Source: Gammaproteobacteria bacterium
GTDB taxonomy: Bacteria; Pseudomonadota; Gammaproteobacteria; Pseudomonadales; Pseudohongiellaceae
Direction: 5' to 3'
DNA length: 64,000 nt
Assembly (NCBI GenBank): GCA_021773355.1
Contig: JAJFKE010000047.1
Span: 124,001 to 188,000 of the forward strand
Part shown: positions 3,081 through 5,794 of the stretch, piece by piece
Numbering within the stretch: position 1 is the first letter of the stretch
Layout of the letters: every line of letters starts with the position of its first letter
The notes under the pieces: generated by a model
What the model was told of the DNA's origin: nothing
The model's input: only the letters and a program-made list of their open reading frames with translations
The model's database searches: none
Program-made: the position numbers and the translations under genes

Positions 3081-3614
3081 TTACGCGAACTGCGGAACTT
3101 GCAAATCTTGCTTCGAAAGCGTGGTTTGAGTCTGTTTCCCAACAATGTTTAGTAGCACCGCAACGCGATCAGCGCTTTTCGAAGCCTGAAAAATACAACG
3201 ATATCCAGCAAACGGCCCTTGCTCAATCTCAACAATATCTCCCGACTTCCACGTTTTCTGAGTAACTTCCTGTAAATGCTCAGAATTTTCATTCTCCTTT
3301 AGCGCGGCAATCAGTCTGGGTGGCACCTCCTTGGGCACGCCGCCAAACCTAACCAATGCCGAGACACCTCGGGTAGAGCGCAATGGTGCCCAATTATCAG
3401 ACTCCAGGTTGAATTTAAGGAAAATATAGCGAGGGAAAAAAGGCTCAATAAGCAATACCAATTTGCCATTGCGACGCTTCGTTACCGCTATAGTAGGGCA
3501 GTAAGCTTCAAAATTCTGACGTGCCAGATTTTCTACAGCGATACCCTCTTGCCGAGGTTTGGTATAGAGAACAAACCAGGCGCAATTGTTGTTTTGAGAA
3601 AAAATTTCTTTCAT
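3081..3614 (-). CDS. rfaH: RfaH-like specialised NusG paralog (transcription antitermination protein)
   Basis: [30 protein letters not shown]...[11 protein letters not shown]...[22 protein letters not shown] domain plus C-terminal KOW-like region ([21 protein letters not shown]). Confidence 0.9.
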
Positions 3615-3718
3615 ATTCTTATAAATATCAATTAGATATTGAACTTTTTTCTTGCTGCTTATAAAAGGTTTAAGTTAATTCTAACAATAGACACTCAGAT
3701 AGATTTCTTGCTTTTAGA

Positions 3719-3730
3719 CACGCTACCGCC
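3719..3730 (-). promoter_or_regulatory. ops / JUMPStart core element
   Basis: Minus strand reads GGCGGTAGCGTG (plus strand CACGCTACCGCC), the known RfaH-recruiting core, about 105 nt upstream of the rfaH-like ATG. Confidence 0.8.
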
Positions 3731-3968
3731 AATAAAGCCCACGTTAGAGTGCGCCTTTCTCTTCAGCTTTCCTTATAAACAGACTTGGGAAAACGGGAGT
3801 TTGAGTGTACCCTTCTGAGTCATTTGTTCAAGACTTGAACGCAGTTTTTGTTCAATTACTGAACGACAGCTCTAATCATGACTCGGCAAGCCCATGATTT
3901 GTTATGGTCTATCTTTATAATGCCCGCTCAAAGCTTATTACAAATTCTCAGAAATTGGACTTAACTGC

Positions 3969-5306
3969 ATGAAAATAACTATCTTTGGATCAGGCTATGT
4001 AGGCTTGGTGACCGGAGCGTGCTTATCAGAATCGGGACACCAGGTTCTTTGCATGGACGTGGACAAGGCTAAAATCGAAGGTCTCAACCGTGGCGATATA
4101 CCAATCTACGAGCCTGGTTTGAAAGAGTTAGTTATATCCAATAGCAAATCAGGAGATTTATTATTTTCAAGCGATACTGAAAAAGCTATAAAATTTAGTC
4201 AGTTACAAGTAATAGCTGTAGGAACACCAGCAGATGAAGATGGATCAGCAGACTTAAGTCATGTACTTAATGTAGCCGCTAACATAGGCAAATACATGGA
4301 CGAGCCTAAAACGGTGGTGACTAAGTCGACGGTTCCTGTTGGTACCTCGGATAAGGTAAGAAGGTCCATTCAGATAGAATTAGAGAAACGTGGCCTGTGC
4401 CTGGACGTGGCAGTTGCCTCTAATCCAGAATTTCTGAAGGAAGGAGCCGCAATAGCTGATTTTATGAAGCCGGATCGCATTATCGTTGGCAGTGATTCGA
4501 GTAGAGTCAGAAAAGTGCTAAGGGAGCTGTATGCCCCCTTTAATCGCAACTCTGATCGCATGATCTACATGGACATTCGTTCTGCGGAGCTGACAAAGTA
4601 CGCGGCCAATGCCATGCTCGCCACGAAGATCAGCTTTATTAATGAAATTGCCAACTTAGCTGAAACCCTTGGTGCCGATATAGAGCAAGTTCGTCTCGGG
4701 ATTGGCTCTGATCCTCGCATTGGCTACCAATTCATCTACCCAGGCTGCGGTTATGGTGGATCCTGCTTTCCTAAAGATGTACGGGCGCTTGCTAAAACAG
4801 CGGATGACAATGGCTACAGCATGGCCTTATTAGATGCAGTGGAAAAAACTAACAACCGTCAAAAAACACGACTATTTTCCATGGTTAATCAACACTTTAA
4901 AGATGATGTCAAAGGCAAGACCTTCGCTATATGGGGCCTGTCATTCAAGCCTAAGACTGACGATATGCGGGAAGCGCCCAGCCGTGTATTAATGCAAGCG
5001 CTATGGGACTCTGGAGCCAGTGTCAAAGCCCACGATCCGGAGGCTATGGGCGAAACCGCGCGCATCTACCCTGATCAGAACTTGCTAGAACTGGTGAGTT
5101 CCCGAGATGAGGCATTGCTGGACGCTGACGCCCTAATCATCTGCACCGAATGGCAACACTTCCGCGCACCGGATTTCGAACACATCAAGACAACTCTTAA
5201 AAATCCAGTCATCTTCGACGGTCGAAACCTCTACGATCCTGAGCAAATGGCGCAAATCGGTATCACTTACTATGCTATAGGGAGAGGAGCCTCTGTTAAT
5301 AGATAA
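3969..5306 (+). CDS. ugd: UDP-glucose 6-dehydrogenase
   Basis: N-term [32 protein letters not shown]; active-site motif [27 protein letters not shown]. Confidence 0.95.
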
Positions 5307-5318
5307 GGCGAATAATTC

Positions 5319-5582
5319 ATGGGCAGGCGCGGAGAACATGGAAAACTTGCTCTCAAAATACTTACAGGGAATGCAGATAGAAACATTCCATTCAACGACT
5401 TGTGCAATTTATTAAAACAGCAAGGGTTCTCGGAATCTATCAGGGGGAGTCATCATATTTTTCGAAAAAAAGGCATAGCCGAGAAGATTAATTTGCAGCG
5501 CGACGGGCATCAGGCTAAGCCTTATCAAGTAAGACAAATTCGTTTTTTGCTTGTAAAATATGGCACCTCAGGAGCCTTCTAA
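5319..5582 (+). CDS. hicA: HicA family toxin
   Basis: IPFNDLCNLLKQQGFSESIRGSHHIFRKKG...INLQRDGHQAKPYQVRQIR: HicA GSHH motif; overlaps the HicB start. Confidence 0.88.
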   Translation: MGRRGEHGKLALKILTGNADRNIPFNDLCNLLKQQGFSESIRGSHHIFRKKGIAEKINLQRDGHQAKPYQVRQIRFLLVKYGTSGAF

Positions 5583-5794
5583 TGCTTAAGTACGAAACCA
5601 CTATCTATTGGAGCCAAGAGGACAACTGCTATGTCGCCAAGGCTAATGAGCTTCCTGGATGCATGGCTCACGGCAATTCTTATGAATCAGCGCTACAGAA
5701 CGTGAAAGACGCTATCCAGCTATGGATCGATACTGCAAATGAATGTGGTGATCCAATTCCCGAACCCAAAATTCACGGCCTGCCCCACTCCTAA
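5582..5794 (+). CDS. hicB: HicB family antitoxin (short form)
   Basis: YETTIYWSQEDNCYVAKANELPGCMAHGNSYESALQNVKDAIQLWIDTANECGDPIPEP. Confidence 0.88.
   Translation: MLKYETTIYWSQEDNCYVAKANELPGCMAHGNSYESALQNVKDAIQLWIDTANECGDPIPEPKIHGLPHS

Follow-up and report, generated by a model that had tools for sequence, protein, structure and literature searches.

An rfaH-like gene is the first gene of its own ops-bearing exopolysaccharide (EPS) operon in the window analyzed here, a stretch of 64,000 nt in a genome of 5,083,155 bases (5.08 Mb). The gene order and the conservation of a 12-nt ops core support this reading, which an earlier note on the sequence had put forward. Predicted recruitment of RfaH at this ops to the operon that encodes it is well supported, and RfaH probably switches that operon on. 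We hold the complete explanation, including docking, antitermination and feedback, with moderate confidence.

An rfaH-family gene heads a one-strand polysaccharide gene run

The order rfaH-like gene, MarR-type regulator gene and SLBB export gene, as first read from the sequence, was confirmed with the TIGR01955, TIGR04176 and Pfam models (Table 1). The rfaH product scored above the curated TIGR01955 cut-off (144.5 bits), and the curated MarR_EPS model TIGR04176 gave 151.3 bits vs. a cut-off of 88. The export gene leaves the window, and its full length in the genome is 951 aa. The 354-nt intergenic region between rfaH and the divergent ugd contains the predicted promoter and ops. A HicA/HicB-like toxin-antitoxin pair (5319–5794, plus strand) is located immediately downstream of ugd.

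The one-strand run of polysaccharide genes starts with rfaH, extends for ∼53 kb and ends at C42:74548; its largest gap (606 nt) is occupied by marR. Beyond the window it contains LegB/LegC/NeuB/NeuC-type nonulosonate genes and WbuX/HisH/WbuZ, and the run also holds many sugar-modifying enzymes and transferases.

Table 1. Features of the locus, and additional ops copies in genomes of genus g6
Feature	Position	Strand	Remarks
SLBB/Poly_export polysaccharide export gene	1–2474 (ATG at 2474)	minus	Pfam SLBB + Poly_export
marR_EPS regulator gene	2681–2995	minus	TIGR04176; Shine-Dalgarno GGGAG
rfaH-like gene	3081–3614	minus	177 aa; TIGR01955, 171.5 bits
Leader, ops to rfaH ATG	3615–3718	minus	no recognisable Shine-Dalgarno; anti-SD duplex −0.3 kcal/mol
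ops element TGGCGGTAGCGTG (13-mer)	3719–3731	minus	12-mer core GGCGGTAGCGTG at 3719–3730; exact match, conserved
Predicted sigma-70 promoter	3804–3831	minus	−35 TTGAAC 3826–3831; 16-nt spacer; −10 TACACT 3804–3809
Palindrome GTTCAAGTCTTGAAC	3826–3840	minus	probable operator, overlaps −35; GTTCA...CTTGAACA invariant in 8 genus leaders
ugd (UDP-glucose 6-dehydrogenase family), divergent	3969–5306	plus	TIGR03026, 466.8 bits
Extra g6 ops	L117–L119, L122, L123, L055, L058–L064		intergenic, exact

The ops element is unique in the genome and invariant in the genus

The core GGCGGTAGCGTG, the same 12-mer that serves E. coli rfbB and waaQ as ops, lies where the earlier note had placed it, with 104 nt (rather than about 105) to the rfaH ATG. 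The cognate 12-nt ops that RfaH finds in the leader of a target operon is thus present as an exact and conserved 12-mer, and it is the sole exact copy in the genome. It is also the only copy with 0 or 1 mismatch in the window, where three other matches have 2 mismatches and are explained by chance. A scan of the genome for the degenerate pattern GGCGGTAGnnT, which had been proposed as a search for other sites, showed no excess (31 sites vs. 45 for the reversed pattern), and we therefore claim no further ops-controlled operons. Trans action on a set of unlinked operons with ops, as in the E. coli mode, was not found, the one exact ops genome-wide being in the factor's own leader. Given this single exact site, the regulon probably consists of this operon alone, to which the factor would be dedicated.

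Among 137 genomes of the family, 28 contained a homologue at E up to 1e-20. The ops-rfaH-marR order was observed at 8 loci in 7 genomes of the genus (this locus and seven others), with 49–73% identity among their RfaH proteins, and MarR_EPS was present in exactly the same 8 of 84 genus genomes as this rfaH clade. In the seven genomes with an intact module, 8 of the 10 exact ops were at rfaH (genome G058 contributes two, one at each of its two modules), and the remaining two, both in G084, were within ORFs. At one locus (L022, G130), two indels enclose an N-terminal stretch of RfaH that is read out of frame, which probably reflects an assembly error.

Lack of conservation of the 12-mer in relatives had been named as an outcome that would count against the proposal; the 12-mer shows no change at any of the 8 genus loci with the rfaH-marR module. 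The leaders of these loci have a mean column identity of 42% and share just three invariant blocks, GTTCA...CTTGAACA, G-TA-[AC]-ACT and TGGCGGTAGCGTG, the last being the longest invariant run in the alignment (13 columns). The first two, 16–18 nt apart, read as a −35 under the GTTCAAGnCTTGAAC palindrome and as a −10. The predicted promoter would be weak by consensus: it has 8 of 12 consensus matches and was therefore missed by a generic scan with a threshold of 9, which listed nothing. Transcription is predicted to start at ∼3797, which would put ops at about +68 to +79. An ops element outside the transcript was another outcome named as speaking against the proposal; the conserved promoter footprint and the predicted start, both sequence evidence, lie upstream of ops, so that ops should be transcribed.

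The palindrome is present in a single copy in its own genome. An exact copy occurs at 8 places in the 84 genus genomes, 7 of them at rfaH heads (including a detached gene in genome G136, see below) and 1 in a coding region. MarR_EPS loci outside the genus did not contain it, and a role as general MarR_EPS operator was rejected for this reason; that MarR_EPS might bind the palindrome here is a guess.

The partial JUMPStart similarity that the earlier note saw upstream of ops was refuted by alignment, by the Rfam model and by comparison within the genus. The 30 nt upstream of ops share 7 positions with the E. coli rfb JUMPStart (76% of shuffles were equally good), and the stretch is not conserved among the 8 genus leaders. 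The Rfam JUMPstart model RF01707, which scored 60 bits with E. coli rfb and 55 bits with the waaQ leader as controls, gave zero matches at E up to 1 in this leader and matched no ops locus among those examined. Any JUMPStart beyond ops itself was thus rejected. In g6/g7 relatives (L028–L043), a conserved element of ∼30 nt, AGATGCYGCA...AATGCACGGGYAG, is present ahead of ops; it is JUMPStart-like by position and outside Rfam's model.

The rfaH gene of the genus lacks a Shine-Dalgarno sequence

RfaH recruits ribosomes to messages without a Shine-Dalgarno (SD) sequence. The anti-SD duplex energy at rfaH starts in the genus had a median of −0.8 kcal/mol vs. about −5 for rfaH in other architectures (Mann-Whitney p = 0.001, uncorrected for relatedness and with predicted start codons). 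The corresponding energy was −6.9 for marR at this locus and −6.1 for same-operon marR in the genus. An rfaH without SD next to a marR with SD is what would be expected if RfaH aids its own translation. The SD-less rfaH is at most a circumstantial pointer to RfaH excluding NusG/Rho and recruiting ribosomes, and is consistent with autoregulated antitermination. In the two further clades where ops precedes rfaH, the gene has retained a good SD, so that the missing SD is a property of the genus. Loss of the SD on marR as a marker of ops proximity was rejected, because marR without SD also occurs where it is not behind ops.

The protein keeps the autoinhibition residues and part of the ops-contact residues

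The protein scored under the respective cut-offs of the NusG, UpxY and LoaP models (UpxY 79.6 vs. 100), and its best solved relative is E. coli RfaH. The residues of E. coli RfaH that contact DNA have been defined (PMC2871177). A comparison of the NGN residues, which had been suggested as a check, gave a mixed answer: K10, Q13, R23, T72 and R73 are kept as K19, Q22, R32, T81 and R82, but H20 is replaced by N and R16 by I, both important for ops binding in E. coli. Residues E48, I93 and F130, said to be necessary for autoinhibition (PMC7593976), are all kept. The AF2 model nevertheless predicted a beta-barrel CTD, with alignments of 34 or of 8 sequences, and matched recruited RfaH (8phk, 6c6s) end to end and autoinhibited RfaH over the N-domain only. 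A fold search confirmed the fold, its low TM-scores reflecting free domain arrangement.

A single-sequence search of the genome contigs returned one distant match. Two further RfaH-like paralogues (G000:C52:5514-5981, L004, and C36:564-1043, L005) scored 103 and 87 bits, below the cut-off. They adjoin acyltransferase-like and acyl-carrier-protein-like ORFs, a TaA-like setting without a canonical ops.

Other lineages carry ops, rfaH and marR in permuted order

A further 370 genomes of the class yielded 81 with RfaH homologues. In 105 rfaH loci (332 kb), the rfaH strand carried 51 exact copies of the 12-mer and the opposite strand a single one, vs. 0.02 per strand expected by chance. Five of the six possible orders were found: rfaH-marR-ops (17 loci), marR-rfaH-ops (12), rfaH-ops-marR (9), ops-rfaH-marR (8) and ops-marR-rfaH (3). 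Without marR, the orders were rfaH-ops (7) and ops-rfaH (1); no ops was nearby at 48 loci. Ops is therefore downstream of rfaH in 45 of 57 ops-bearing loci, and on the RfaH tree ops-before-rfaH requires at least three changes (this genus, with a branch support of 99; G535; and a three-family group). It follows that (i) ops travels with the operon-encoded rfaH; (ii) the position with rfaH downstream of its own ops recurs; and (iii) feedback is not a general requirement, since ops follows rfaH in most other lineages. The own-operon reading of ops proposed in the earlier note is supported at this locus, but the note had missed that in other families ops usually comes after rfaH.

Extra exact ops before unlinked small genes (Table 1) are present in g6 genomes, whose order is marR-rfaH-ops or rfaH-marR-ops, and suggest a trans regulon there. 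At one locus (L034:1999-2074), a large near-perfect inverted repeat is present between the rfaH stop and ops, where relatives carry different repeats. In G535 (L154), an ugd-like ORF lies directly upstream of promoter-ops-rfaH in the same direction.

The module is split in G136 (G136:C1 1551068 and 1576768; L137, L109). The detached rfaH has kept the palindrome-promoter, has an 800-nt leader without ops and is not followed by marR. At a distance of 25 kb lies the EPS operon, in which a palindrome-promoter, with the palindrome variant GTTCAAGTATTGAAC, and GGCGGAAGCGTG (ops T6A) precede marR and the export gene. No other RfaH of the genus has the Q22R and S80F changes of the G136 protein, which adjoin ops-binding residues and correspond to positions 13 and 71 of E. 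coli RfaH. RfaH reads T6 as a flipped base, and E. coli RfaH is recruited only at T6 sites (PMC11001881). The pair points to co-variation of site and factor, in one case. Since the element has stayed with the EPS genes and rfaH has become detached, the EPS operon is its primary client, a point likewise missed in the earlier note.

Discussion

From the ops, its position, uniqueness and conservation, the protein family, the promoter footprint and the missing SD, we infer recruitment, antitermination and feedback at a self-contained RfaH/ops module heading a very long EPS operon. RNA polymerase would start at a weak promoter ∼70 nt upstream of ops, beneath a palindromic operator, and pause at ops. 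The non-template strand of E. coli ops forms a hairpin with C3:G8 and G4:A7 pairs and a G5-T6 loop, and the same hairpin is expected here. RfaH made from the first gene would dock at ops, displace NusG/Rho and couple ribosomes, and read-through would then cover the SD-less rfaH, marR and ∼53 kb of polysaccharide genes. With rfaH behind ops, this would form a positive feedback loop on the operon's own antiterminator, and autoregulated antitermination is the best reading that we can infer.

Ops might instead serve the EPS structural genes alone, rfaH being behind it by happenstance and expressed unaided, with no meaningful feedback. We regard this as doubtful but a serious contender. The shuffled order across families, with ops after rfaH at most ops-bearing loci, would fit it, as would G136, where the variant ops accompanies the marR-SLBB operon and the detached rfaH has the palindrome-promoter and no ops. 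However, rfaH, without an SD, is kept directly behind ops in every intact module of the genus, and ops-before-rfaH has appeared in three separate branches. We consider it very improbable that RfaH here is a beta-barrel form with constitutive activity, recruited in cis during its translation as proposed for monomorphic RfaH, with the ops-like sequence a mere pause site. The beta-barrel CTD predicted with both alignments and a gene beside its own operon, as in the monomorphic clade (PMC13015549), are in line with it. However, G5 and T6 of the loop serve to recruit RfaH rather than to cause the pause (PMC11001881), and neither base varies among the 8 intact modules; the three autoinhibition residues are also all kept. 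A chance match or coding constraint, for which the lack of excess of the degenerate pattern might speak, is refuted by the comparative data, the 12-mer being intergenic, invariant across diverged flanks and biased 51:1 in strand at rfaH loci.

The RfaH/ops module resembles E. coli RfaH and the ops of rfb/waa in protein family, in the identical 12-nt ops and in having a polysaccharide operon as target. E. coli rfaH, however, is monocistronic, far from its targets and trans-acting, and has no ops in its own upstream leader, whereas rfaH here is the first gene of its target operon; the E. coli sites carry a full JUMPstart RNA, and ops here does not. Bacteroides UpxY and Shewanella CL7 RfaH are likewise encoded inside the polysaccharide operon that they are thought to control, but no ops has been reported for them (PMC7593976), in contrast to the conserved canonical ops described here. 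The monomorphic beta-RfaH clade is likewise next to long envelope operons and shares the beta CTD predicted by AF2; it was active without ops in a reporter (PMC13015549), whereas here ops is strictly conserved and the autoinhibition residues are kept. In the TIGR04176 MarR_EPS-associated rfaH (probably within Wang cluster CL4, HTH-linked), a small HTH gene is likewise beside rfaH before EPS genes. The MarR_EPS/rfaH pairing is already known at COG level, and local action of operon-encoded NusG paralogues (UpxY, TaA, Shewanella CL7) has been published (PMC7593976, PMC13015549). In the open-access papers that we consulted, we found no description of the placement of ops and its permutation at MarR_EPS-rfaH loci, nor of a canonical ops whose position is permutable and can be ahead of rfaH itself.

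A bolder version, which we consider unlikely, is that RfaH is dedicated in cis, that its CTD rests as a beta-barrel and that the protein still depends on the canonical ops. It would combine sequence-specific recruitment and ops-coupled translational feedback, without fold-switch autoinhibition. If true, a beta CTD together with ops dependence would run counter to the published sequence of events, according to which ops recognition and autoinhibition have a common, late origin tied to action in trans, and the G136 pair (ops T6A with RfaH Q22R and S80F) would represent a joint shift to a new specificity.

According to the literature, it is unknown how RfaH/NusG paralogues locate the operon that encodes them (PMC7593976, PMC6391919). 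The DNA suggests an answer for recruitment: a canonical ops is kept inside the own operon, in a permutable position. In some lineages ops lies ahead of its own rfaH, so that positive feedback is possible. With the permuted loci, the SD contrast and G136, where the locus is split, ops carries T6A and RfaH is altered beside its DNA-binding patch, recruitment becomes open to direct testing.
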